IMG/VR virus record: IMGVR_UViG_3300017755_000040 | Span: 1-32,655 of that record | From: a virus | Strand: one strand, 5' to 3' | DNA: 32,655 bases | In this document: piece after piece, positions 2,998 through 32,655 of the stretch | How positions within the stretch are numbered: position 1 is the stretch's first letter | How the letters are laid out: every line of letters begins with the position of its first letter | Notes under the pieces: model-generated | Told to the model about the DNA's origin: nothing | What the model saw: only the letters and a program-made list of their open reading frames with translations | Database searches by the model: none | Position numbers and translations under genes: made by a program

Positions 2998-3369
2998 CTA
3001 CCTGGTTGGATCGGTCAAGTGTTTTTTGACCTTTTCCCAGTACGGAATCGTGGATTCCTTCAAATAACCTCGTGGACCCCCGTGGTGGATTCTAGTTATG
3101 AACTCTGCTCGGCTCATCCCCGCTGGCCGCTTGTGATCTTGGGCGTAGCGATCCATATACGCGAAGAAGATTCTGCGAGCCTTGTACGGATCGAACGCAT
3201 CCTCGTGCGTCCAATCTGCTTTGGCCCACTCAGACGCATCCTGCACATATGCAGAATGCATCTGTAAGAGCCCATAGGCCTTTCCGGCATCGCCTATGGC
3301 ATTTGGATCGCCGCTACTCTCAACGGCAATCAGTGCGAGTATTAGAGCAATCACGAGTGTGCCTCCCAT
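2998..3369 (-). CDS. lysozyme-like lytic transglycosylase (endolysin candidate)
   Basis: A 123-residue muramidase/transglycosylase of the SLT/goose-lysozyme fold that would cut peptidoglycan. The catalytic Glu is Glu17 in IAVESSGDPNA, followed by AYGLLQMH (31-38) and the RIHHGGPRGY motif (93-102) that closes the substrate groove in this family. The N terminus before Glu17 (LVIALILALIA) is very hydrophobic. It could act as an export or signal-anchor segment, or simply be the catalytic helix with no separate leader. It overlaps the upstream minus-strand ORF by 19 bases. It is encoded against the late genes, between TerL and portal, and far from the holin-like genes at 9.9-10.9 kb. A virion-associated role is possible, but a lysis role is more likely. 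Confidence 0.85.
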   Translation of the reverse strand: MGGTLVIALILALIAVESSGDPNAIGDAGKAYGLLQMHSAYVQDASEWAKADWTHEDAFDPYKARRIFFAYMDRYAQDHKRPAGMSRAEFITRIHHGGPRGYLKESTIPYWEKVKKHLTDPTR

Positions 3370-3575
3370 CCATTAACCAATGAACCATCATAATGATTCA
3401 TTGGGTCATAAAAGCCCACTGTTGCTTGGGGATAGTCGGCCTTTGCTAGTTTTAAGGTATCGTAGAAATCGACCAGGGTTTTACGGTCTTGGCCTTCTAA
3501 TACGGACCCTCTAGGGTACTTATCGATCTTGTACACGGCTAGGCCATGAATGGATGTTTCTATTGAATAGGTCAT
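3351..3575 (-). CDS. hypothetical protein (74 aa) in lysin island
   Basis: A 74-residue soluble protein with mixed alpha/beta character: a beta-rich start (IETSIHGLAVYKIDKY), a helix (DRKTLVDFYDTLKLAKADYP) and a closing strand (ATVGFYD). I do not recognise the family. It is the first gene of the leftward pair, downstream of a promoter-like TTGACT-17-TTTATA, and its stop lies inside the lysin start region, so the two are probably co-translated. A regulator, inhibitor or chaperone of the lysin would fit the pairing, but nothing in the sequence proves it. Confidence 0.65.
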   Translation of the reverse strand: MTYSIETSIHGLAVYKIDKYPRGSVLEGQDRKTLVDFYDTLKLAKADYPQATVGFYDPMNHYDGSLVNGWEAHS

Positions 3576-3621
3576 ACGTCTCCGAGGCTTTCACCTTCTT
3601 TGAGGATGTCAAAATCAAACT

Positions 3622-3688: not shown

Positions 3689-4906
3689 ATGCGTAATCCA
3701 TTCCGTAGAAAATCGAAAGACGAGCCGCAAAATAATCTATCATCGCCCGATGAATGGCTAGTCGATGCTCTCTTTCGTGGATTGTCATCCTCGGGAGTCA
3801 AAGTGACTCCTATCACGGCGTTGGGCATTTCAACGGTCTATGCGTGTGTAAATGTCATCTCAAAAGCTATCTCTAGTCTTCCACTATGCATTTATGAGCA
3901 CAGCGAAAACGGAGACAAGGTAAAGGCCTACAACCATCCTCTTTATAACGTCCTGACACTGAACCCGTCAAAAAACATGACGACCAGTGAGGTCATGGGG
4001 GCAATTGTTAGCAATCTCATACTTCGCGGAAACTCATACTCTCTGTTAGGTCGCGACGGGCTTGGAAACGTCCGGCAGATGATGCCGATTGAACCAAGCG
4101 ACATGAGCTTGCAGATTCATCCTGTCACAAATGAGATAGACTACCTAGTCGATGGCAAAAAGGTTCAGCGATCTAGGATTCTACATGTCAAGGGGCTAAG
4201 TAGCTCCGGTGTTCTCGGCTTTGATACTACGACCCTAGCTAAAGATACAATCGGTCTAGCAATTGCCCTACAGGATGACTTGGCGAGTTTCTTTAAGAAC
4301 GGGGCAAAGATGGGTAGCATCCTGCTATCCGACAAAACGCTAAAGGCTGAACAGATCCAGAGACTTCGCGATGCATTCGACAGCCGTCACAAGGGAACCG
4401 ACAATACATACAAAACGGCAATCCTTACAGACGGTCTAAGGCCTTTTACAGAACGCTTCAGCTATCAGGATTCTCAACTGGCCGAGCAACGCAAGATCAC
4501 GACCCAGGAGATTGCCAGGACATTTGGCGTGCCTTTGTCCAAGTTGCAGATCGAGTCGGCAACGCCTAGAGCTAATGTAGAGGAATCGAATCGGGACTTT
4601 GTCACCGGAACGCTTCGCCCGATTGTAGTCTCGCTCGAGCAGGTGTTAAATTTAAACCTAATACCGGAATCGCAAAGAAACCAATTCTCTATCAGCTTCA
4701 ATATGGACGCTCTCCTTCGCGGGAATGTCGAGGCTAGATACAATGCATATCGGATCGGGCGTGAATCTGGGTTTCTGTCTGTTAACGAGATCAGAAGGAT
4801 GGAAGGACTTAATGGCATAGGCGAAAAAGGAGATACCTACTTGCAGCCACTAAACTTCACGGAACTCGGATCGGCACCTAATGAAGAGGACATAGAAGAT
4901 GAGTAA
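3689..4906 (+). CDS. portal protein (HK97 family)
   Basis: A 405-residue portal, normal for this family. It forms the dodecameric ring at the capsid vertex through which DNA passes and to which the terminase docks. Family marks include GISTVYACVNVISKAISSLP near the N terminus, HPLYNVLTLNPSKNMT, the RGNSYSLLGRD segment, the stem/crown region FFKNGAKMGSILLSD, and TTQEIARTFGVPLSKLQ with ESNRDFVTGTLRPIV in the C-terminal half. The acidic tail (NEEDIEDE) overlaps the protease start by 8 bases. A short GAGG lies 3 bases before the start. Upstream is the divergent region shared with the lysin island. No convincing rightward promoter is visible there. Confidence 0.93.
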   Translation: MRNPFRRKSKDEPQNNLSSPDEWLVDALFRGLSSSGVKVTPITALGISTVYACVNVISKAISSLPLCIYEHSENGDKVKAYNHPLYNVLTLNPSKNMTTSEVMGAIVSNLILRGNSYSLLGRDGLGNVRQMMPIEPSDMSLQIHPVTNEIDYLVDGKKVQRSRILHVKGLSSSGVLGFDTTTLAKDTIGLAIALQDDLASFFKNGAKMGSILLSDKTLKAEQIQRLRDAFDSRHKGTDNTYKTAILTDGLRPFTERFSYQDSQLAEQRKITTQEIARTFGVPLSKLQIESATPRANVEESNRDFVTGTLRPIVVSLEQVLNLNLIPESQRNQFSISFNMDALLRGNVEARYNAYRIGRESGFLSVNEIRRMEGLNGIGEKGDTYLQPLNFTELGSAPNEEDIEDE

Positions 4907-10709: not shown

Positions 10710-10910
10710 ATGGAACAGCATTTTGTAAAATCTCTCTATTCAGCAGCTTTGGGACTGATCGGATCATTCACATCAATTGCTAGTGTAAGTGAGTTTCTGG
10801 GAATCTTGGGAGCCGCTGTTTCCATCTGTTCGGGATGTTTGGCAAGTTACCATTTGATATTGGGCATACGCATTCGCAAGCGGGACATTGAGGAAAGGGA
10901 AAACGACTAG
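10710..10910 (+). CDS. small two-TM membrane protein, holin/antiholin candidate
   Basis: A 66-residue protein with two probable membrane helices (about 7-30, LYSAALGLIGSFTSIASV, and 30-53, GILGAAVSICSGCLASYHLIL) and a highly charged C terminus (RIRKRDIEEREND). This is the classic small-holin layout. With the larger 3TM-like protein 350 bases upstream, the two could be a holin/antiholin pair. Its stop TAG overlaps the GTG start of the next gene by one base. Confidence 0.6.
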   Translation: MEQHFVKSLYSAALGLIGSFTSIASVSEFLGILGAAVSICSGCLASYHLILGIRIRKRDIEEREND

Positions 10911-11404
10911 TGGCTAAGGCAAATATGGAAGTCAAAGTTCCTACTCGTCAGATAATGGAGATAGAGAAAGAGCTTTTCAAGCTTGGTGATCCTAAGTGGG
11001 TTTTTGGAAGATACCAGGCTGCGGCGAAGCATGCAATGAAGCCAGTGTTGGATATGATTGTGCAAACAGCTCCACACAAAACCGGAACACTTAAAAAATC
11101 TATAACAATAAACAGCAAAAAGAGCAGAAAAAGAAGGGGCCAGTCTTCGGCTCGTGTTGGAGTTGGATCAAAAAAAATCTTTGTAAAAACAAATAAGCAA
11201 GGAAAACCTGAACTATACAAGCCAGCCGTATTGATAAATGCCATAGAGTTTGCTAAAAATGGGAAAGCAGGAAGTGGTTTTATAAGAAAGGCAGCAAAGA
11301 AAAAAGGGAACGCTAAAATATTAGAGCAAGGAATTCGTGAGTTCATGAATAAAGCAGTTAAGAAAAGAACTAAGTTCCTGCTAAAGAAAAGGAGTAAAAA
11401 ATGA
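10910..11404 (+). CDS. HK97 gp10-like tail completion protein
   Basis: A 164-residue protein with the gp10 family core APHKTGTLKKSI (about 60-71) and the later GSGFIRKAAKKK segment. It is very basic (Lys/Arg-rich tail), as usual for this head-tail joining/tail-terminator neighbour. It starts with GTG overlapping the upstream TAG. An ATG five codons on is an alternative. It sits directly before the DUF3168-like terminator, the standard gp9-gp10 order. Confidence 0.8.
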   Translation: MAKANMEVKVPTRQIMEIEKELFKLGDPKWVFGRYQAAAKHAMKPVLDMIVQTAPHKTGTLKKSITINSKKSRKRRGQSSARVGVGSKKIFVKTNKQGKPELYKPAVLINAIEFAKNGKAGSGFIRKAAKKKGNAKILEQGIREFMNKAVKKRTKFLLKKRSKK

Positions 11405-12235: not shown

Positions 12236-12550
12236 ATGAAAGAACAAACGATCAAAGTTAAAATCAACGGAAAGGATCGCGAAGTCTACGCTGGCAACGC
12301 GGCCCTTTTACGTTTTCGTCGTGCTGGTGGCGATATGGCGTTAATCTCTCAGGCATCTGAGGATAGTAACAACGCTTTATTCGACTCCTTGGACGCGATT
12401 GTTAAACTAATTTGCGTTAACCTAGTTAAGAAGGATTTAACTCCAGATGAAATTGCGGATGGGGTTGAATCTATGCCTGAGCTATTTAATGCAGCCGGAG
12501 TCCTACTAAATCAAGTCCCTTGGTTGGTCGGCTCCAAAGACAAAAAGTAA
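12236..12550 (+). CDS. tail assembly chaperone (gpG-like)
   Basis: A 104-residue protein between tube and tape measure, the conserved position of the chaperone pair that coats the tape measure protein. The start IKVKINGKDREVYAGNAALL, RFRRAGGD and the helical core resemble gpG/TAC proteins. It ends PWLVGSKDKK then TAA (12548-12550). The second chaperone ORF follows in the same frame only nine bases later, so no -1 frameshift can fuse them. See finding. Confidence 0.75.
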   Translation: MKEQTIKVKINGKDREVYAGNAALLRFRRAGGDMALISQASEDSNNALFDSLDAIVKLICVNLVKKDLTPDEIADGVESMPELFNAAGVLLNQVPWLVGSKDKK

Positions 12551-12559
12551 CGGGCTCCG

Positions 12560-12805
12560 ATGACGCAGGGCGACTATGATAAAGCATTGCTAGATGATTT
12601 TGCATTTGCAGTAGTTGCCTTGCGTCTAAGGCCTGACGACTTTTGGGCTATGAGTCGAGGTGAGTATATAGCATGCGTAAACATGTGGAGACGACTAAAC
12701 GGACAAGAAGTCGCCGAAGGAAACACGCAACAAAGAGTAGATTCTTTTTCTAAATATTTAGAAGGAACATTTGGCGGTAAGGTAGATAAGAGAAAAAATG
12801 GCTAA
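12560..12805 (+). CDS. second tail assembly chaperone ORF (gpT-like)
   Basis: An 81-residue acidic/amphipathic protein: DYDKALLDDFAFAVVALRLRPDDFW, then MSRGEYIACVNMWRRLNGQE. The DDFW...EY...W pattern is the usual second half of a G/GT chaperone. It lies in the same reading frame as the upstream ORF, separated by TAA and CGG GCT CCG. No Shine-Dalgarno site precedes its ATG, so re-initiation or stop readthrough is likely. It overlaps the tape measure start by 8 bases. Confidence 0.72.
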   Translation: MTQGDYDKALLDDFAFAVVALRLRPDDFWAMSRGEYIACVNMWRRLNGQEVAEGNTQQRVDSFSKYLEGTFGGKVDKRKNG

Positions 12806-24055: not shown

Positions 24056-25372
24056 TTATTGTGTTATAGATAGTTCCTCCTGGTCGCCTTGAATTTCTCC
24101 ATGAACGGCAGAAAGAATGTCAGAGTGTCTGACTTGTCTGCTCAATCTCAATCCATTCATACTGGTAACTCGGCTTATGGCAACATAAAGAAGACCAGTA
24201 GCGAATGGTTTAGTCGGTGGCAAGTCTATATAAACTTTTTTTATAGTAGATCCCTGCGAACTATGTATGGTCATAGCCCACCCTAGGACAACAGGAAAGG
24301 CTTTGAATTCTCCAGATTTTACCTGCTCCAACTCGGAATTTCTACCTATTGTCCATTTATGCTGAGTCCAAACCTTCTTCGGAAGATTTATCATGCCCTT
24401 GCCGTCTACATCGATCAGCATTCTTCCGTAGCGATCTACTCCATAGAATGTCCCTTGGTCGCCATTAACGCATGTTTGATGGTCGCCTTCGGCCTTCCAT
24501 GATCCATTCGCCTTCACAACCACTCTAGCCCCCCTGCGAAGCATTAGTGGCTGCACAGGATCTTCGCCCTGCCATTGCTTAGACTCGGTAGTGAACTCAA
24601 TCTCTTGGCCGTGCAGCTTTGCTAGTTCGCGCAGATTGACTCGCTTGGCGATAGCTCGGTAGGGAGTTAGCGTAATGCTACCAGGCAAAGGTCGCCCGAC
24701 ACATCGATTGAGAATACGCAAATCTAGGTTAGATTGCTGGCCTGTCCGGATTCTAGAGAATAACTCTCCCTCGGCTCTGGATTGTTGACGAAAAATTCTG
24801 GTTAATCGGTAAGTCTTAATGCCCTTCAGGCACTTGGCCTCGGATATTCCAAACGGGAATTTATACCCCCATGATTCCAACGCCTCAGAGTCTCTCTGAG
24901 AGCTTACTGGTGGGAGTTGACCGTCGTCTCCGACTAGGAGTATTCCGGCCCCGCCAAAAGCGTTTGTAGAGCGTCTGGAGTGCTGTAAGGCACTGTTTAT
25001 AAAGTCTAGCTGGTCTGCCCTGAGCATTGAGCATTCGTCAATGACAATCCAGTCGGCTTGGGCTAGGGGGGCAGATCGCTTTCCACCAAAATACCTGGTA
25101 GATACGTCCGATTGCCTAAGCTTTGTGGCTTTTAGACTTGGGTCTAGTGGATATTGCGATGGCATGCCGAATGTCTTGTGGACTGTCTGACCGCCAACTA
25201 GGGACGCCGCTAGTCCGGTAGGGGCACAATAAACAATCTTGCTCGAGGATTTGTATAACTCACGAACCACAACGCTTTTACCCGAGCCAGCGGGACCAGA
25301 CACACGAAGGACTCGTTCAAAGCCCGACCGAATGGCCTTAACTATTTCTAACTGTTCTCCGGTCAGATTCAT
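24056..25372 (-). CDS. SF1B helicase (Pif1/Dda/RecD2-like)
   Basis: A 438-residue helicase with all core motifs intact: Walker A GPAGSGKS (26-33), APTGLAA (50-56), DECSM (112-116), GDDGQLPPV (148-156), LTRIFRQ (190-196), AMTIHSSQGST (366-376) and YVAISRVTS (396-404). The compact size and the Pif1-type IFRQ and HSSQGST motifs place it with phage Dda/Pif1-like 5'-3' helicases, used in replication initiation, fork progress or recombination. It is the only helicase I see, and no primase or polymerase accompanies it. It overlaps the sigma-like gene by 4 bases (ATGA). Confidence 0.92.
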   Translation of the reverse strand: MNLTGEQLEIVKAIRSGFERVLRVSGPAGSGKSVVVRELYKSSSKIVYCAPTGLAASLVGGQTVHKTFGMPSQYPLDPSLKATKLRQSDVSTRYFGGKRSAPLAQADWIVIDECSMLRADQLDFINSALQHSRRSTNAFGGAGILLVGDDGQLPPVSSQRDSEALESWGYKFPFGISEAKCLKGIKTYRLTRIFRQQSRAEGELFSRIRTGQQSNLDLRILNRCVGRPLPGSITLTPYRAIAKRVNLRELAKLHGQEIEFTTESKQWQGEDPVQPLMLRRGARVVVKANGSWKAEGDHQTCVNGDQGTFYGVDRYGRMLIDVDGKGMINLPKKVWTQHKWTIGRNSELEQVKSGEFKAFPVVLGWAMTIHSSQGSTIKKVYIDLPPTKPFATGLLYVAISRVTSMNGLRLSRQVRHSDILSAVHGEIQGDQEELSITQ

Positions 25373-25926
25373 TTACACCTAGTATGACTGGCAAACTTCT
25401 TCATCGAAACTTTACTGTTATATATGTGATTGCTCACCTGCTTCTCGGATAGGTTAACGATGATTGCAATTTTGCTCAACGAATTGCCTTTTGCGTAAAG
25501 CCTCATAATGCATCGAGCCTTACTCGACTTTAGCATATCTATAAGGTCATACAGGTCCGAGTAACTCTCTTGGTAGTATTCAGTTTGATCGTTTATCGGG
25601 ATTGGCGAGACATTTGGCTGATATAGATCCTTAGATGCATACCAAATAGCCGTAGATAAGTACGGTAGGTTCCATTTATCCGTATTGCGAAGAGGCAATA
25701 TCCTTAACCAAATTTCACCTTCGGCGTCTCCGGCATCTACTGCCCCTGCGGTTTTGCGATTAACAGATCTGCCAGCGATTGATATTATCCTTACCAAAGT
25801 TTCGTCGAGAGCCTCTAGCCTTTGCGACTCGGTAATTAGAAACTCGGCTTTATATCCTGGCATGTCATCAGACCAATACCTATGACCATCCGTTTCTATT
25901 GTTCCTATAGGGGTTTTGAAAATCAT
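25369..25926 (-). CDS. sigma-like transcription regulator (region-4 HTH)
   Basis: A 185-residue protein from ATG 25926, which overlaps the upstream stop as ATGA; an ATG at 25974 is the longer alternative. The C-terminal 147-177 is a sigma70 region 4/LuxR-type helix-turn-helix: GNSLSKIAIIVNLSEKQVSN, then HIYNSKVSMKKF. The middle (about 66-105, GDAEGEIWLRILPLR...YLSTAIWYASKDLY) resembles region 2 helices of ECF-type factors, but the conserved -10-binding residues are not clear. It could redirect host RNA polymerase to late promoters. The N-terminal 60 residues are unrelated to sigma factors. A plain HTH regulator is the alternative. Confidence 0.55.
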   Translation of the reverse strand: MIFKTPIGTIETDGHRYWSDDMPGYKAEFLITESQRLEALDETLVRIISIAGRSVNRKTAGAVDAGDAEGEIWLRILPLRNTDKWNLPYLSTAIWYASKDLYQPNVSPIPINDQTEYYQESYSDLYDLIDMLKSSKARCIMRLYAKGNSLSKIAIIVNLSEKQVSNHIYNSKVSMKKFASHTRCK

Positions 25927-26264
25927 GGGCCATATGGGTTGTGGGGTAAATAAACTGCATGTGTATAGTCGCAAGCGTTTGAAATTGAAGTAAGGTCAAC
26001 AAATAGTTTTTTGTTCTTAGCCATCTTAGATGCTTTTTCAGACTCACTTCTAAGCTTGTTCTTAATCTTTTGATTTATGACCTGCCTCTCAAGCACGTCC
26101 ATCCTCTCTGGGCCAACGACCTTACCCTCTCTATGTGATGCAGCAGCCCTAACTGCTTGTTCGCGGCTAGAATGAGAGGAAACAAACCCCCACTCGTTTG
26201 CAACGATCCAGGGCTTCTCTGTCTTACTCCATGTCTTTCGATTATATTTAGAGTTTTTCTTCAT
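25923..26264 (-). CDS. basic hypothetical protein (113 aa)
   Basis: A 113-residue Lys/Arg-rich protein starting MKKNSKYNRKTWSKTEKPW, with a central segment SREQAVRAAASHREGKVV and a helical basic stretch (ERQVINQKIKNKLRSESEKA). The charge suggests nucleic-acid binding. No family recognised. It overlaps both neighbours (ATGA with the sigma-like gene, 17 bases upstream). Confidence 0.62.
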   Translation of the reverse strand: MKKNSKYNRKTWSKTEKPWIVANEWGFVSSHSSREQAVRAAASHREGKVVGPERMDVLERQVINQKIKNKLRSESEKASKMAKNKKLFVDLTSISNACDYTHAVYLPHNPYGP

Positions 26265-26556
26265 CTTCTAATTTATACCCAGCCGCCCACGCGATGTACA
26301 CGGAGTTTAATTCTTCCTCATTTAAATGCTGATTTTTATATACCAAAATATCGGCATTTCCAAAGCTTAGACAATAAAGTCTCCACATATCGTCATCAAC
26401 TTCCACTTTTAAATTTCGACGACTCACAGGCATTAACTCTCCATGATGCTTTCCACCTAGCAAAGGAGCAACAGACTCGGGTCTTTTGGAATTGCTACTT
26501 AGCAAAATCCTGATCTCGTTAGTCAGAATCTCTATATTCTCATACATATTGGTCAT
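26248..26556 (-). CDS. hypothetical protein (102 aa)
   Basis: An acidic 102-residue protein; a second ATG at residue 4 would cut the upstream overlap to 8 bases. Parts are IEILTNEIRILLSSNSKRPE, then DDDMWRLYCLSFGNADIL, and a C-terminal acidic helix (LNEEELNSVYIAWAAGYKLE). No family known. Its place among nucleotide and DNA genes is the only clue. Confidence 0.6.
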   Translation of the reverse strand: MTNMYENIEILTNEIRILLSSNSKRPESVAPLLGGKHHGELMPVSRRNLKVEVDDDMWRLYCLSFGNADILVYKNQHLNEEELNSVYIAWAAGYKLEDEEKL

Positions 26557-26812
26557 CTTCCTCTCTTAATTTGTCCTGCACGAGCTTTGCATATCCTTGT
26601 ATATCCTCATATGTGTCCAGATGTTTATAGTCGGCGGTCACCGCTCGGCTAATCTTACTTAGTATCATATCAAAGGCTTCGCATATATCAAATGGAAGCT
26701 GTTCATAGTTCACGCCTTCACGGATAACCCGCTTTAGCCTCTGTGCTATTGCAGCGTTATCGGAAAACCTTCCATAGGTTTCGCCGCGTTTTTCTAATGT
26801 TCGTTCTAGCAT
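26540..26812 (-). CDS. DUF6378-like small phage protein (90 aa)
   Basis: A 90-residue helical protein with the pattern seen in phage DUF6378-type proteins: RGETYGRFSDNAAIAQRLKR at the start, MILSKISRAVTADYKHLDTY in the middle, then EDIQGYAKLVQDKL. These are common in phage early operons. The biochemical role is unknown. An all-helical MazG-like nucleotide hydrolase fold is sometimes suspected, but the catalytic EExxE set is not seen here. Confidence 0.65.
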   Translation of the reverse strand: MLERTLEKRGETYGRFSDNAAIAQRLKRVIREGVNYEQLPFDICEAFDMILSKISRAVTADYKHLDTYEDIQGYAKLVQDKLREEDDQYV

Positions 26813-26813
26813 A

Positions 26814-27158
26814 TCAGTATTCTCTTATTCTTATCTCTCTAATTCCGAAACGAGAGAGTGCCTCTGCACATTCCGGACAAACGTACTTGTGACCATAAAC
26901 CCAGACAATGCTAGGTTTTATAGTCATCTCTAAAACCTTAAGCTTGTCGAGTAGTCGCATCTCGGCATGCGTCGATTTGCAGAAGTGTGTCTGATCGCCT
27001 GTAGGCAACTCTAATCTAGCACAAATATGGCCAGTGTCTTCGCAATCATTCGCAGCAGTTAAGAAATCAGCCCCAACGTAGCATCCGGCGGCAACGCCTC
27101 TCTTTTGGCAAGTGCTTTTAGGATGTACCTTCAATCGTAGATATTCAAACTCGGTCAT
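26814..27158 (-). CDS. deoxycytidylate/cytidine deaminase-like protein
   Basis: A 114-residue zinc deaminase. Zn ligand and proton shuttle are His64 and Glu66 (STHAEMRLL), with Cys94 and Cys97 (VCPECAEAL). The N-terminal KRGVAAGCYVGADFLTAAND matches the strand-helix before the active site in dCMP deaminases. It would make dUMP for dTMP supply, yet no thymidylate synthase or dUTPase is seen. The protein is shorter than typical dCMP deaminases (about 140-190 residues), so substrate is uncertain. Confidence 0.8.
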   Translation of the reverse strand: MTEFEYLRLKVHPKSTCQKRGVAAGCYVGADFLTAANDCEDTGHICARLELPTGDQTHFCKSTHAEMRLLDKLKVLEMTIKPSIVWVYGHKYVCPECAEALSRFGIREIRIREY

Positions 27159-27162
27159 TTTA

Positions 27163-27651
27163 TTAATGAGATCCAGGTTCTCTCGTTAGGTCTATCCAGC
27201 TAACATTATTTATGTCCGACATATAACAGTCCTGGGCATACGGCCTATCTCTGTCTGGGATGCTTTTAATCGTCCAAGACTTGTGGTGATGTCCAAAAAC
27301 GACCGCAGCATGGGTCATTGCTGGATTCAGATACATATATAGGAACGGCTTTGGCTCGGCATTGTCCCATGAGTGCTTGGCACAAACTATGAAGTTTGAC
27401 CCAAATGGCCAATCGGTCCTGTCAGTGAAATTGTAGCCAAGGCCCTTAATCTCCATCCGCTTTTCTTCGCCGCTGTGCTTGCTCTTTACATAGCAATCAC
27501 CAGAATCGGCATACTCCTTCCACTGATCGTGAGTAGGCCTGATCTTTGTTTCAGGGATGTGTACTATATAATCCCGGGATTTCCACCAGTCGGCGACAAC
27601 TTCGACGGCCCTCTGGCTTTTCTTTAGTCTTTCGACAAACTTAGTTTCCAT
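27163..27651 (-). CDS. putative PD-(D/E)XK-type nuclease (162 aa)
   Basis: A 162-residue protein with GDCYVKSK (Asp52) and, 14 residues on, RMEIKGL (Glu67-Lys69). This D-X14-E-X-K spacing suits the restriction-endonuclease/resolvase fold, and Glu17 (AVEVVADWW) may complete the site. The rest is beta-rich (FGSNFIVCAKHSW, PFLYMYLNPAMTHAAVVFGH). It could process junctions or host DNA. The evidence is motif-level only, and a non-nuclease function remains possible. An A-rich leader (AAAACCAAAATAAAAT) precedes the ATG. Confidence 0.5.
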   Translation of the reverse strand: METKFVERLKKSQRAVEVVADWWKSRDYIVHIPETKIRPTHDQWKEYADSGDCYVKSKHSGEEKRMEIKGLGYNFTDRTDWPFGSNFIVCAKHSWDNAEPKPFLYMYLNPAMTHAAVVFGHHHKSWTIKSIPDRDRPYAQDCYMSDINNVSWIDLTREPGSH

Positions 27652-27671
27652 ATTTTATTTTGGTTTTGTTT

Positions 27672-28316
27672 TTATAGTTCCATTAGATAGTTAGTAGCCA
27701 CCTTGCCGTGCTCAACTACACCACATGCGATGGCCGGATGCGGCCCATGCTTACCATAGGCCATTGCGTAAGATTTCCGATCTATTCCGTTGCCTACCTG
27801 CATGCCAAAGACACGGCAATTATCGCCCGTATGCCACACCACTCCACATTCGGAATGGTGATGGCCTTGGACATAAGATCTCATGTTGTCCTTGGCTTTT
27901 TGAGGAGCCTTCTTGCCTTCGCCGTGGCAGTAGCGAACGTCATCTATAGTTACGTCTTCAACAAACTTCCATCCAGGTGCGTCAAACATTTCGCCGTAAT
28001 CGCGAACCCACCTGCGGGATATACCCGCAGAGTAGGCCTTGCGATGTACGATGCGATCATGGTTTCCAATGCAGACGTATGCCTCGGGAAATGCCTTATA
28101 CCATTTCTGTATCTCGGTAATCGCCCGATCTAGTTCTTCTCCGGCACTGAATCCATCTGGGTCTGTCTCATGAAATGAGCTATAGTGATTATCCACCAGA
28201 TCTCCTATAAAAACAACCTGGTTACAACCGCATCGGCGATCAACATTCTTACAGAAGCGTAGATACTTCTTCAGCGTGAATGGGGCGTGTAGATCGCCTA
28301 TGGCTAGAACCTTCAT
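27672..28316 (-). CDS. calcineurin-like metallophosphoesterase
   Basis: A 214-residue protein with the complete motif series: GDLH (7-10), GDLVDN (38-43), GNHD (84-87), His131 in CHGEG, and GHHH (151-154). Phage members of this fold act as DNA 3' phosphatases, nucleases or nucleotide phosphatases. Nothing here separates these. It overlaps the upstream ORF by ATGA. The cofactor would be two divalent metals. Confidence 0.9.
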   Translation of the reverse strand: MKVLAIGDLHAPFTLKKYLRFCKNVDRRCGCNQVVFIGDLVDNHYSSFHETDPDGFSAGEELDRAITEIQKWYKAFPEAYVCIGNHDRIVHRKAYSAGISRRWVRDYGEMFDAPGWKFVEDVTIDDVRYCHGEGKKAPQKAKDNMRSYVQGHHHSECGVVWHTGDNCRVFGMQVGNGIDRKSYAMAYGKHGPHPAIACGVVEHGKVATNYLMEL

Positions 28317-28585
28317 AGCGATGGAAGGCCAAGTTTATTGAGAGCTTGGTTTAGCTCAAAGTCCCTGCCGCAAGCATCAGATGGCCTGTAGTCTTTTGTC
28401 ATTTCAAACAGTTCACCTTTGCCGCGAGGATTTGCAGAATTCCACCAGATTACTGATGCCGCCCAATTAGCTATAGTGCCATCGGTTACGTGTTTGCGGA
28501 TCTCATAGACCCAATGCAGTTGAGGCTTCCTTTTGACCTCTTTTCTAAAATCAACCATCTTTTGGGTTTTTTCTAATAATGCCAT
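28313..28585 (-). CDS. hypothetical protein (90 aa)
   Basis: A basic, Trp-rich 90-residue protein (KPQLHWVYEIRKHVTDG, TIANWAASVIWWNSANPRGKG). An internal ATG at 28558 gives an 8-base overlap with the upstream gene (ATGGTTGA) and may be the true start, while the longer start gives 35 bases. No known domain. Confidence 0.6.
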   Translation of the reverse strand: MALLEKTQKMVDFRKEVKRKPQLHWVYEIRKHVTDGTIANWAASVIWWNSANPRGKGELFEMTKDYRPSDACGRDFELNQALNKLGLPSL

Positions 28586-28967
28586 AGGTTTTATTTATCT
28601 CCTTTATCACTTCTTGAATTGGTTGCTGCATTAGCAGCGATGTGAGGTTAATGATTGCTGCGAGTTCTACGGATGCTTCCCGTAGCTCGGTAGATGGCTC
28701 TGGCTCGCCCTCTGGGCCTGGATTAAGATCGACATGAGCATTGACCTTGCTGGAGTCAATTAGCTCATACACGTCGCGACCATCGACTGGTTCACGAGGC
28801 TCAAAACCACCGCTCTTATAGTTTGTTCCGATTCCATAGTCGCCTTGACTCGGTACAATCGCAACGAATTCCGTACCATCCTTTCTCTCAAGAAGGAGGC
28901 GGGTTACCCCGCTCTCCCTTATCTTGATAATGCTCTTTATGCGGCCTTGGATATACTGCACGGTCAA
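28551..28967 (-). CDS. hypothetical protein, possible OB-like N terminus (138 aa)
   Basis: A 138-residue protein. The first 50 residues are beta-rich (YIQGRIKSIIKIRESGVTRL, LLERKDGTEFVAIVP), followed by an acidic Pro-rich linker and a helix (LREASVELAAIINLTSLLMQ). The beta part could be a small OB or SH3 barrel. The start is TTG (28967) or GTG (28961); neither is ATG. It overlaps the SSB-like gene by 4 bases, suggesting a shared role in DNA binding, which is unproven. Confidence 0.55.
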   Translation of the reverse strand: MTVQYIQGRIKSIIKIRESGVTRLLLERKDGTEFVAIVPSQGDYGIGTNYKSGGFEPREPVDGRDVYELIDSSKVNAHVDLNPGPEGEPEPSTELREASVELAAIINLTSLLMQQPIQEVIKEINKTYGIIRKNPKDG

Positions 28968-29611
28968 AACGCTAGATCTTCGCCGACTGAGACCGTCACA
29001 GATGCTTCCTGAACGGTTGCAGTTGGCTTGTCGATGTTTTCATCTACTCGTTGTATAAACGTATCGATCTCCGTATCGAAGGCGGCTTCCATGCTCGACG
29101 TGTCGCGTACCTTGCGACCGAACTTTTCGCTGACCTCGGCCTTTCGCAAGCCAGTAAACCACCTCGCTTCCGAATCGTAGGGCCAAGTCTGAGTAATCCT
29201 TTCGCCTGACTGAGTTATATACAATGCAGTCGGAACAACGGTCTTTCCATACTGGTTTTTCCAAGCTCGCTTCTCATTCAAAGCAGCTTTCAGCTCAATT
29301 GGCTTATTGAGATCTATACCGCCAAGGATATTCGCGACCCCAAGGAAATTGCTTTCATAGAGCTTGAACTGAGCGGCGTCATCGTTGTCTAAGTAGATCG
29401 TGAAGAACATGTCCTCGCCTAACGGCTGTACGGCTGCTCCAGCGACCTTTCCTATAAGTGACTGTTTAAACCAGCCTAGGGTCTTCCCCTCTTTATCTCC
29501 GAAGCTCCAGTGACGAAACTCGCGGCCATCGTTAATATCAGGATCGGCATCCGCTCCTGGAACCTTGGCAAACCATTTGCCTTCGGATTTAATGCTATAG
29601 TATTTTTTCAT
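28964..29611 (-). CDS. putative ssDNA-binding protein (215 aa, SSB-like tail)
   Basis: A 215-residue protein with a beta-rich first half (YYSIKSEGKWFAKVPG, GEDMFFTIYLDNDDAAQFKL, NKPIELKAALNEKRAWKNQY) and an acidic, flexible C terminus ending GEDLAF. This resembles the terminal tip of bacterial SSB (DDDIPF), which recruits host repair and replication proteins. It lies between an HNH/exonuclease block and the OB-like ORF. The fold is not confirmed and no named family is recognised. A recombination mediator or annealing protein is the alternative. Confidence 0.45.
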   Translation of the reverse strand: MKKYYSIKSEGKWFAKVPGADADPDINDGREFRHWSFGDKEGKTLGWFKQSLIGKVAGAAVQPLGEDMFFTIYLDNDDAAQFKLYESNFLGVANILGGIDLNKPIELKAALNEKRAWKNQYGKTVVPTALYITQSGERITQTWPYDSEARWFTGLRKAEVSEKFGRKVRDTSSMEAAFDTEIDTFIQRVDENIDKPTATVQEASVTVSVGEDLAF

Positions 29612-29630
29612 ATGTTTATTTTACTTGAGG

Positions 29631-29831
29631 TTAAATTTCACATTTTAGGCTTATGATATTCGGTATTTCAGGCTGCTTATCGACCCACTCGTCGAAGCCA
29701 GCCAACGAATTAAACCCTAGCATGTTTATATCTTGTCGCTCTTTGCCTCGCTCAACGACTACGACAACGCTGCGAACAGCATTTCTGTTTAAATTGGTTA
29801 TGATCGATTTATCTTTAGTGTATTCTTTCAT
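29631..29831 (-). CDS. hypothetical protein (66 aa)
   Basis: A 66-residue basic protein (RNAVRSVVVVVERGKERQ, DINMLGFNSLAGFDEWVDK). It has a hydrophobic strand VVVVV but no membrane span. It overlaps the HNH gene by ATGA. Unrecognised. Confidence 0.6.
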   Translation of the reverse strand: MKEYTKDKSIITNLNRNAVRSVVVVVERGKERQDINMLGFNSLAGFDEWVDKQPEIPNIISLKCEI

Positions 29832-30238
29832 TGTGATTTTGATTTTTTGTTAATCTGCCTTAATTTTTTTTCATCCGCCGTTTTCAATTTATGACAAGGC
29901 TTACACAAAGCCTGTAAGCCCTCTGTTTCAACGTACAGCCGCCGCAGTACCTGATCCCAATTGTACCCCAGAAATCCCTCACAATCGAAACCGTCGATAG
30001 GAACGACAGGCTCAATGTGATCGACCGCCATGTCTTTTTGTGGAAACAAGTTGCCACATTGCTTGCATTTATGAAGCTTGCACATCCTGCCAGTCGCCGG
30101 ATTCACGCCCGTTTTGATGTAGGCGTCCCGCAGTGCTTGGTATTTAGCTGGCCACTTGGCCCCTCTAAGTGCACTCATGATAAATGATCGGAATCGGGCC
30201 AAAGTCCATTGGCCGTTAGCATACGGTTTCTCAACCAT
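29828..30238 (-). CDS. HNH endonuclease of the early operon
   Basis: A 136-residue HNH protein with zinc-finger cysteines at 58/61 (CKQCG) and 112/115 (CKPCH), the catalytic DHIEPV (His74), and LQALCKPCHKLKT, a typical phage early HNH. It is unlike the packaging HNH at 638-952. It may act in recombination, homing-like processing or DNA degradation. The operon has no intron, so an ordinary early nuclease is preferred. The tail is very basic. Confidence 0.88.
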   Translation of the reverse strand: MVEKPYANGQWTLARFRSFIMSALRGAKWPAKYQALRDAYIKTGVNPATGRMCKLHKCKQCGNLFPQKDMAVDHIEPVVPIDGFDCEGFLGYNWDQVLRRLYVETEGLQALCKPCHKLKTADEKKLRQINKKSKSQ

Positions 30239-30413
30239 TGTTCATGATGTCGCGAATATATTCGGTTCCGATCTGATCAATCAACGGCACTAGGTGTTCG
30301 TCTTGGCCCTTGAAATAGATCTTCATCTCTTCATCAGCCACTACACCGACGACTACTGCGTCGCAGTTGTCGAGTAGGGTCTGTATGGTTCTCTCATAAA
30401 GTTGTTCGTTCAT
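30231..30413 (-). CDS. hypothetical protein (60 aa)
   Basis: An acidic 60-residue protein (LLDNCDAVVVGVVADEEMKI, IDQIGTEYIRDIMNN). It is coupled both ways: ATGA with the exonuclease and ATGGTTGA with the HNH gene. Alpha/beta pattern, no known domain. Confidence 0.6.
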   Translation of the reverse strand: MNEQLYERTIQTLLDNCDAVVVGVVADEEMKIYFKGQDEHLVPLIDQIGTEYIRDIMNNG

Positions 30414-31165
30414 CTTAGCTTATTCACTATTAGGTATAAATTGCAGCACGCGTCGAAAACATCTAGGGCATGCTGTTGCTGGTCTCGTGTCCAGCGGCGA
30501 ATTCCGGTTCTCCCATCCTCTACGGCGATCACAATGGACATTATGTTCGGCATATAGTCTAGGCCTTCACGCTCGCGAATAATGTCAGCTTCGACTGCTA
30601 GCTGGGCACAGTCCTTTATATAGGCTTTTGCCTCGGGTTTGCCAACCGTCACAGATCGCGTCTTAAAATCCATCAGCACGTATTGGCCTGCCGAATCCTT
30701 AGCTAGTACGTCAATTGTTCCAGCCGTTTTACGGCGTAGGCAATAGCAGATGCTTTCTGCTGCGACTAATTCATGCCCAGTATCTCGGAACCACTTGGCA
30801 AATGGGTTAACATAGGTCGCGTATGGGCCACTGTTAGGGCTTAGATCGCCCTGAGCCATCCGGTCTAAGTGACACTCTAGTGCCTTATGCACCGACGTGC
30901 CAAACTCGCTAGAGGTGACCTCACGACCGTCAACGTCTTGACGCATCCCGTATCGCCGACGCTCGCATTCTTCCCAAGATATACCGCATTGGGCCATGTC
31001 CCAAATCTGACGCCTCATCCAGCCGGACAAGAAGTCGTTTGGAAGGCACCCAAGCATCGTAGTGACACTTGCCAAAGCATTAGACTTCCTAGCTTGGGTT
31101 GGCGTCGTGACGCTCTTAAGTAGCCTTACATCGCCACTAGCGTTTACCTTATAGAAGTGGCTCAT
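30410..31165 (-). CDS. RecB/Cas4-like PD-(D/E)XK exonuclease
   Basis: A 251-residue nuclease with the full motif set: GTSVHKALE (89-97), Glu137 (AAES), Asp152 (GTIDVL), MDFKTRS (Asp166-Lys168) and Gln188 in CAQLAVEAD. These are the catalytic and structural residues of the PD-(D/E)XK exonuclease superfamily used in phage recombination. No Cas4 iron-sulphur Cys cluster is evident. With the SSB-like and helicase proteins it could give a recombination-dependent replication system. Confidence 0.82.
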   Translation of the reverse strand: MSHFYKVNASGDVRLLKSVTTPTQARKSNALASVTTMLGCLPNDFLSGWMRRQIWDMAQCGISWEECERRRYGMRQDVDGREVTSSEFGTSVHKALECHLDRMAQGDLSPNSGPYATYVNPFAKWFRDTGHELVAAESICYCLRRKTAGTIDVLAKDSAGQYVLMDFKTRSVTVGKPEAKAYIKDCAQLAVEADIIREREGLDYMPNIMSIVIAVEDGRTGIRRWTRDQQQHALDVFDACCNLYLIVNKLR

Positions 31166-31332
31166 AGCTTTTGCCCTTCTACTTCCTTGCGATCCATGAT
31201 CGCCGTATATACGTCGCCGTCGTCGTCATACCATCTGACAACTAAGCGACCGAACAACGTGATTCCCACTATTGCTACATGCCCCTCCAGAGAAGGACAG
31301 TACACGATATCATTTATTTCGATTTTTTTCAT
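31162..31332 (-). CDS. small hypothetical protein with SH3-like strands (56 aa)
   Basis: From ATG 31332 the frame encodes KKIEINDIVYCPSLEGHVAI, then VGITLFGRLVVRWYDDDGDV, a compact beta-barrel-like pattern. An ATG at 31374 would add a Cys-rich head (CSRATKGGCCK) that lies inside the upstream gene, so I prefer the shorter form. It overlaps the exonuclease by ATGA. Function unknown. Confidence 0.58.
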   Translation of the reverse strand: MKKIEINDIVYCPSLEGHVAIVGITLFGRLVVRWYDDDGDVYTAIMDRKEVEGQKL

Positions 31333-31549
31333 TTTGCAACATCCTCCTTTGGTGGCCCTTGAGCAATGGCCCAAGGCATTTTTCTAACTCGTCCCGTGCG
31401 ATTTCGATGTCGCACTTGAGCCCGTAGATGTCCTGCTTATTCCTGAAGCAGTCATCCGTGCATTCATCTAAAAAGCTGATCAGGTGGCTGATCTCGGCGT
31501 GTTCGCCAACGGTAATGGGCTTTGTAAATTTAAACCTTTCTAAACTCAT
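31310..31549 (-). CDS. hypothetical helical protein (79 aa)
   Basis: From ATG 31549, four bases after the upstream stop (TAGGACAATG). An ATG at 31591 would extend into the previous gene, so I prefer this start. It is charged and helical: ERFKFTKPITVGEHAEISHL, ISFLDECTDD, CDIEIARDELEKCLG. It has four Cys. No named family. Confidence 0.58.
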   Translation of the reverse strand: MSLERFKFTKPITVGEHAEISHLISFLDECTDDCFRNKQDIYGLKCDIEIARDELEKCLGPLLKGHQRRMLQNEKNRNK

Positions 31550-31553
31550 TGTC

Positions 31554-31799
31554 CTAATAATAATTAATAAATGCATTTGTACGCCATGCACTTACAAAAG
31601 TCTTACGGCTAGGCATCCGTCCGATGAAATCGGCATCGCTATCAGGAGCCATTGTTGGCCCTTCAAAAACTAGCGCATGACGCCGTCCTAAGTCTCTTGC
31701 CAGGCGGTCATAAAGATCGGCTTCGCAACTGTTGCCAATCAAGGCCAACGCGTTGCAAAGGTTTTGAATTTCTTCTCTTGAATACTTATAATCACGCAT
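31554..31799 (-). CDS. hypothetical protein, first early gene (81 aa)
   Basis: An 81-residue protein: MRDYKYSREEIQNLCNAL, then CEADLYDRLARDLGRRHALV and a C-terminal RKTFVSAWRTNAFINYY. It is the first gene after the presumed leftward promoter, with an A-rich leader ATAAAAACCAAAATAAT and no Shine-Dalgarno site. The place suggests an immediate-early takeover factor. Nothing in sequence proves it. Confidence 0.62.
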   Translation of the reverse strand: MRDYKYSREEIQNLCNALALIGNSCEADLYDRLARDLGRRHALVFEGPTMAPDSDADFIGRMPSRKTFVSAWRTNAFINYY

Positions 31800-31893
31800 A
31801 TTATTTTGGTTTTTATAACATAGGTACCCCCCCCGCCGACTTTTGAAAATCGAGGGATTGGATCTGGTTATTGTTTTGGTTAGTGGTTCCTAT

Positions 31894-31909
31894 TAATACC
31901 AGGGTATTA
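31894..31909. promoter_or_regulatory. perfect palindrome TAATACC-AG-GGTATTA, operator candidate
   Basis: A 16-bp dyad in the leader of the leftward operon. The centre (TACCAGGG) also occurs in the right-end tandem repeats. Probably a protein-binding site. No matching repressor is recognised. Confidence 0.45.
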
Positions 31910-31914
31910 GTGCA

Positions 31915-31927
31915 GTCGATAATCGAC
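31915..31927. promoter_or_regulatory. perfect palindrome GTCGAT-A-ATCGAC, operator candidate
   Basis: A 13-bp perfect inverted repeat with a one-base centre, 5 bases from the previous palindrome. The sequence differs from it, so two different factors are possible. Confidence 0.42.
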
Positions 31928-31987
31928 GATTCACCAATCACAATTTGGCCTAGGTTCCGGTTAGTGTACAAGTTTTGCACAAATTCT

Positions 31988-32015
31988 AATCTAGCGCCGG
32001 TCGATCTCGTGTCAA
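31988..32015 (-). promoter_or_regulatory. candidate leftward early promoter
   Basis: On the minus strand a perfect TTGACA (32010-32015), 16-base spacer, then TAGATT (31988-31993). It would give a leader of about 180 nt that includes both palindromes. The -10 is weak (4 of 6), so the call is moderate. Confidence 0.38.
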
Positions 32016-32300
32016 ATCGTTTTATGCTGGTTTTGTGCTAATAAAGTGTAAAATGATTCCTAACCAATTTTACCGAGCAGCTAGTGCGCTTTAAAGAGGG
32101 GGACTTTTGGCATATGTAGAAAAACAGCCAAAATCGGGCGATAAATATTGAATTTATTAAAATGCCAGAAACGTACAAAAAATTATCTTTGGGATAAGGC
32201 CTAAAAATAAAAAATCAAAAACTTGGCGAGGCTGGTAGTAAAAAAAATTAACTCGGTAATCGACCCCTATAGGTGATTTCTAAGAATTTATAAAAAAGTT

Positions 32301-32505
32301 GTAAATGTAAATGAAATGTAAATTTACATGGTTTTTACATATGTAAAACAATCGTAAATGTAAAACAAATGTAAATGTAAAACAAACGTAAATGTAAAAA
32401 GAACGTAAATGTAAAATGAATGTAAATGTAAATTGATTGTAAATGTAAAAAATTTACATATGTAAATGGGTTGTAAATGTAAAAAATTGTAAATGTAAAA
32501 AAGTA
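32301..32505. repeat. 17-bp iteron-like tandem repeats, origin candidate
   Basis: Repeats with consensus GTAAATGTAAAA plus five variable bases recur at exact 17-base steps from 32337 to 32488: starts 32354, 32371, 32388, 32405, 32422, 32439, (degenerate 32456) and 32473. Palindromes such as TTTACATATGTAAA (32334 and near 32453) and ATGTAAATTTACAT occur too. Tandem direct repeats with a fixed step next to AT-rich DNA are the hallmark of replication-initiator or partition sites. No Rep/Par protein is recognised in the window. Confidence 0.72.
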
Positions 32506-32534
32506 GTTAACGCGCAAAACGCTAGCAAAACCGC

Positions 32535-32561
32535 AAAACGAGCGGAAAAACCGCCGTTTTT
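32535..32561. terminator. A/T-flanked hairpin, possible bidirectional terminator
   Basis: AAAACG-a-GCGG (32535-32545) pairs with CCGC-CGTTTT (32551-32560) with one bulge, with a loop of five A. Rightward it is followed by TTTTT (32557-32561). It could insulate the iteron side from the repeats or from transcription across the junction. Confidence 0.45.
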
Positions 32562-32564
32562 AGC

Positions 32565-32655
32565 TACCAGGGCACACGGTACCAGGGCACACGGTACCAG
32601 GGCACACGTCTACCAGGGCACACGGTACCAGGGCACACGGTACCAGGGCACACGC
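32565..32655. repeat. six 15-16-bp tandem direct repeats at window end
   Basis: TACCAGGGCACACGG is repeated at 32565, 32580, 32595 (16 bases, ends GTC), 32611, 32626 and 32641, almost without change, and the array is cut by the window edge. It may be longer. Candidate roles are terminase recognition (the terminase genes would follow if the ends join), initiator binding, or a terminal redundancy. No spacers, so not a CRISPR array. Confidence 0.8.

Follow-up and report, generated by a model that had tools for sequence, protein, structure and literature searches.

Near one end of a tailed-phage contig lies an array of short direct repeats beside A+T-rich DNA, and the question that this locus raises is what reads it: a replication initiator, as an earlier note on this DNA implied, or another protein of the phage or of its host. 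The window that we analyzed is the whole IMG/VR record (G000), linear and 32,655 bp long. The terminase gene (1303-2931) lies on the + strand, as do those for the portal, protease, capsid and tape measure, and a leftward early block (24056-31799) encodes a Dda-like SF1 helicase, a PD-(D/E)XK exonuclease and an HNH protein. This block opens with an ORF of 81 aa (31554..31799, - strand) ~500 bp from the array, and the genes for the helicase (24056-25372), an SSB-like protein (28964-29611) and the exonuclease (30410-31165) lie deeper in it. The closest TerL relatives are only ~33% identical.

Elsewhere in the window, a lone reversed lysozyme/transglycosylase-like gene (2998-3369, - strand) sits between terminase and portal and shares ~60% identity with one in the group C phages described below, and a small early protein (26814-27158, - strand) shows weak similarity to deaminases of the cytidine/APOBEC-like kind (E ~0.003). 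A 70-nt tmRNA tRNA-like domain (397-466, + strand; Rfam RF00023, 48.8 bits), with a G-U third pair in the acceptor stem and no mRNA-like part, is preceded by a non-coding stretch (130-396), and the mean column identity of the segment is 95% over four relatives. What looks like a tag-less tmRNA thus appears to be carried by the phages of group A, to which the window belongs.

Structure of the Repeat Array

Array 1 (32300..32499, + strand; A+T content ~80%) consists of nine YGTAAAYGTAAA units (YGTAAA-YGTAAA-N5) that start at 32300, 32353, 32370, 32387, 32404, 32421, 32438, 32472 and 32488, with a step of 17 bp and a last step of 16 bp. The 17-bp register from 32353 comprises eight YGTAAAYGTAAA units and one with an inverted first half-site (32455), and TRF reported a period of 17 with 12.4 copies over 32291-32502; the array is thus a tandem direct repeat of fixed register within the range of about 17-22 bp. 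Between the early block and the array runs an A+T-rich stretch (32150..32299, 68-72%), a possible unwinding region. Read by half-sites, the array holds GTAAA-N6-GTAAA boxes (11-bp step) on the + strand at 32343, 32360, 32377, 32394, 32411, 32428 and 32462, spanning 32343..32493, and a GTAAA-N5-GTAAA box at 32479 (+); another GTAAA-N6-GTAAA box (32307..32322, +) lies at the left array end, outside the 17-bp register. Inverted half-site pairs, TTTACATATGTAAA, occur at 32334..32347 and 32453..32466; the right half of the latter is in the 17-bp register, so that this pair represents a unit with a flipped left half-site.

As a null model we used 2000 first-order Markov shuffles of 31800-32563, counting as a near-match any site with at most one mismatch in GTAAATGTAAA. 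Nine near-matches were observed against a shuffle maximum of four, and five 17-bp-spaced pairs against a shuffle maximum of zero. The earlier note had described a 17-bp direct-repeat array with TTTACAT-ATGTAAA-type palindromes at this place, and both features were confirmed, the palindromes being the two TTTACATATGTAAA pairs. Its suggestion that TGTAAAA also marks other control regions did not hold up, as the six copies outside the array (+ strand at 45, 3633, 10724, 11182 and 32047; - strand at 4444) compare with 5.7 expected by chance on both strands; of the positions it listed, 3633 and 32047 on the + strand were right and 44 should read 45.

The Segment Beyond the Contig End

The contig ends 160 bp beyond array 1, inside a GC-rich tandem array that the earlier note did not include and of which six copies of a 15-bp unit, TACCAGGGCACACGG, remain (32564..32654, + strand) before the contig end cuts it. 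The relative G001 (36,201 bp; 88-91% identity to the window over most aligned parts) adds 1.8 kb absent from the window. Past array 1 it has ~26 of the 15-bp units, strong hairpins, a GP88-family gene and then array 2 (12450-12549), which carries the same iteron in the orientation opposite to array 1; three TGAGATTGAGTCTCA-type palindromes follow, and then the tmRNA-like element that opens the window. No cognate Rep or other initiator was found in the early block or in the relatives' copy of the missing segment. The earlier statement that no Rep protein is recognizable therefore extends to the G001-type full segment, although in the window it is partly an effect of contig truncation.

GC-rich tandem arrays of 15-17 bp, whose unit differs from phage to phage, were seen beside the iterons in the window and in other carriers (window 32564-32654; G001 10789-11174; G002 33-151 and 345-518; G006 1879-2131). 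The GP88-family gene of G001, located between the two arrays on the minus strand, encodes 328 aa (Pfam GP88, E=2e-19), and the family has 129 relatives in viral contigs, with seven invariant Cys. Its AlphaFold model (pLDDT 89.8) gave no fold match in the PDB at E<=0.001 and no replication initiator, with the radical SAM enzyme spore photoproduct lyase among the weak structural matches. GP88 was thus rejected as the Rep protein for want of an initiator fold match, and as a common iteron binder because it is absent from group B. Of 60 GP88 loci, 9 have a tandem array that begins no more than 600 bp beyond the gene on its 3′ side, a density ~seven times that found elsewhere, and a link between GP88 and the GC-rich arrays is possible.

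Distribution and Conservation of the Array

Searching 2.9 million viral contigs for exact occurrences of two 17-bp-spaced cores returned 11 stretches, which correspond to groups A, B and C plus G004 (two cores). In group A, array 1 is present in the window, G001 and G009, and array 2 in G001, L009 and L011. Group B (G005, G003 and L016) has structural genes that differ from those of group A, with identities to it of 41% for the helicase and 77% for the metallophosphoesterase. Group C (G002, G006 and G007) encodes PolA and a primase together with a GP88 protein 54% identical to that of group A, and carries genes that we take to be DUF2800/DUF2815-like. By phmmer, A and C have GP88 and a peptidase in common, and A and B the helicase, the metallophosphoesterase and the SSB-like protein; no protein was detected that is common to B and C, nor to all three groups, in a comparison where G003, G006 and G007 are fragments and remote homology could escape. 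The array lies at 29562-29714 in G005 and at 158 of 41657 in G002; in group C it is flanked by TerS and GP88, both of which end towards it (3′ ends), with no obvious promoter adjoining.

A looser scan for GTAAA repeats gave extra matches only with periods of 6, 18, 24 and 27 bp, which are probably low-complexity or coding repeats; its 17/18-bp GTAAA matches were discarded as further arrays, none having a 17-bp step. The iteron array was not found in a genome collection of 84,980 species, in which the matches L073-L075 proved to be isolated or of low complexity. Group B phages also contain an array of TTTGATTAGTCAAA palindromes at a 22-bp step (28010-28155 in G005, the L065/L066 contig; 1476-1623 in G003; 4337-4438 in L229), just upstream of the gene in the TerS position, and it is retained even in those without iterons.

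The 73 units from the three groups show near-total agreement at each position of the 12-bp core, with Y tolerated at core positions 1 and 7 in both A and B. The 133 half-site steps in nine arrays are mostly of 6 bp (60) or 11 bp (57), with four of 10 bp and the remaining 12 of 17, 22, 18 or 25 bp, and the array can be read as GTAAA-N6-GTAAA boxes tiled one base apart. For 161 bp through the array G005 and G003 do not differ at all, against an identity of 82-85% in the flanks and in the helicase DNA, which implies that the array sequence is constrained or was recently exchanged. At the same time, the group B relatives L227, L230, L231, L234-L237, L239 and L240 have no array and keep the helicase and SSB-like DNA at about 80-95% identity. 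In L229 and L242, two samples that are 99.4% alike, the array is down to one GTAAA-N6-GTAAA with intact flanks, possibly through assembly collapse. Absence of the repeats from close relatives, which the earlier note would have taken as counting against its proposal, was therefore observed for some group B phages; in group A, by contrast, all relatives covering the place have an array. Judged by sequence, the array is a conserved, dispensable and presumably cis-acting element in a phage control region.

Candidate Functions of the Array

In the reading nearest to the earlier note, an initiator would bind the 17-bp units, open the A+T-rich DNA and load a helicase and the host polymerase. The 17-bp step, the direct orientation and the A+T-rich neighbor match iteron origins, and in each of the three groups the GC skew reaches its minimum at the array or close to it (G001 12188, between the arrays; G005 29408; G002 39334). 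This skew, however, tracks the switch in coding strand, and we set it aside as origin evidence because divergent transcription confounds it. The group A phages encode a helicase and an SSB-like protein, yet no recognized polymerase, primase or DnaB, so that host recruitment at some site would be needed, and in the relatives without an array, G008 and C75C1, the genes include one for a primase/helicase, or those for DnaB and an annotated replication initiator. On the other hand, phmmer found no initiator common to the array carriers, no exact DnaA box (TTATNCACA) occurs in the array regions of G000, G001, G005 and G002, the array is missing from close group B relatives whose helicase and SSB-like genes are the same, and group C has it alongside its own PolA and primase. 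From the proposal of an iteron site forming a novel-looking phage origin we consequently retain a conserved, iteron-like array in a control region; the origin itself, with no Rep, no DnaA box and no unconfounded skew, we consider doubtful.

The array could instead function as the operator from which the divergent early and late blocks are controlled, read by a phage regulator too divergent to recognize. Both arrays of G001 read TTTACATTTAC towards the block that they precede (array 1 the early, array 2 the late), and the window encodes a weak sigma/LuxR-like HTH protein (25369-25974), but no such regulator is common to A, B and C despite the near-invariant site, and the group C array is not promoter-proximal, which makes this explanation quite unlikely. 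Even less probable is a pac/cos or partition site bound by TerS or a ParB-like protein: the group C arrays do adjoin TerS, within about 2.5 kb of TerL, but phages with TerS proteins that are not similar to one another have the identical iteron, and in group B TerS adjoins another array, the 22-bp TTTGATTAGTCAAA one. A packaging or partition role would suit the 15-17 bp GC-rich arrays better than the iterons; the sequence of the GC-rich arrays varies among phages, as does TerS. A decoy that titrates a host regulator would account for the many strong copies, for the group C array without a nearby promoter and for dispensability in some group B phages; its place in the control regions of A and B speaks rather for a local role, and we hold the decoy to be highly improbable.

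A Host OmpR/PhoB-Type Regulator as the Putative Reader

We favor, still tentatively, a reading in which an OmpR/PhoB-type regulator encoded by the host binds the array at the early/late control region. A winged-helix protein, presumably host-encoded and of the OmpR/CpxR type, would bind cooperatively to the direct GTAAA half-sites, whose spacing alternates between 6 and 11 bp, and its occupancy might switch early and late transcription, the access of host replication proteins, or both. No binder encoded by all three groups was detected, so that one conserved phage protein for this task is not apparent; together with the near-invariant site, this suggests that a host protein is what reads it. 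The array is either kept letter-perfect or dropped, and it is common to phages with differing replication genes, so an optional hook for a host factor appears to fit better than a site for a phage-specific initiator. The location of the group C array between the TerS and GP88 3′ ends speaks against a promoter-side role, and a simple promoter operator cannot explain all cases.

Among known specificities, that of CpxR would be the best match to the array. The CpxR consensus is GTAAA-N4-8-GTAAA (PMC5063474, PMC9603713), and the CpxR site of Pseudomonas aeruginosa mexA, GTAAACCTAATGTAAA, has the spacing N6 (PMC5063474). In the Serratia pig promoter the OmpR footprint is CATTTATTTACATTTAC (PMC9712742), a sequence over which a CpxR site has also been predicted (PMC7283389). 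The 11-bp (57) and 10-bp (4) steps of the arrays fit the CpxR consensus, which would be relevant in a host with CpxR or a similar regulator. This match arose from a text search on the repeat and is a post hoc lead, no test. Against CpxR, the sites in the cited papers are single boxes and not rows of eight, the 6-bp step is left unexplained by the CpxR model, and TyrR sites are TGTAAA-N6-TTTACA, so that TGTAAA half-sites also serve other regulators.

Fur-box-like palindromes of the TGAGA-N5-TCTCA type were found at most ~100 bp from an array in groups A and B (G001 12556-12644, G005 29715-29757, G003 3556-3598) and nowhere else in these contigs, and the palindrome TGAGAATGATTCTCA at position 3584 of G003 has the same sequence as a Fur box that has been reported from Enterococcus faecalis. 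In an extended form that we regard as unlikely as a whole, unrelated phages would have independently kept or exchanged a CpxR-like tiled array, joined in two groups by Fur-like boxes, through which host envelope-stress or iron signals would directly time early transcription or replication without a phage initiator. If the array is read by the host, it would offer a way to trace uncultured phages to their hosts and would allow a direct test of the wiring of lytic phages into bacterial stress signaling. As a caution, iteron-like arrays in viral contigs are not necessarily origins.

Comparison With Known Systems

Theta-plasmid iteron origins and lambda-type origins, the latter with the O protein, have direct repeats of about 17-20 bp beside A+T-rich DNA, as found here; unlike them, the array has no cognate Rep or O gene and no exact DnaA box, is dispensable in close relatives and is common to phages with differing replication genes. 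An iteron site on a phage-related element is also known from PLE, whose origin iterons act with RepA and are targeted by Odn of phage ICP1 (PMC8263062); no such Rep protein was found with the present array. The 'Gp88' (Odn) of ICP1 resembles the Pfam GP88 family in name only. Phage P4 has two separated repeat sites, ori and crr, with the alpha protein as initiator and primase. The two arrays of G001, about 1.8 kb apart, are spaced in a like manner, whereas no counterpart of the alpha protein was found with them. Compared with the CpxR box of the OmpR/PhoB family, the array differs in tiling at least eight boxes 1 bp apart, in being on a phage and in adding a 6-bp step and some inverted half-sites, and shares with it the GTAAA half-site, the direct orientation and the 11-bp step (N6).
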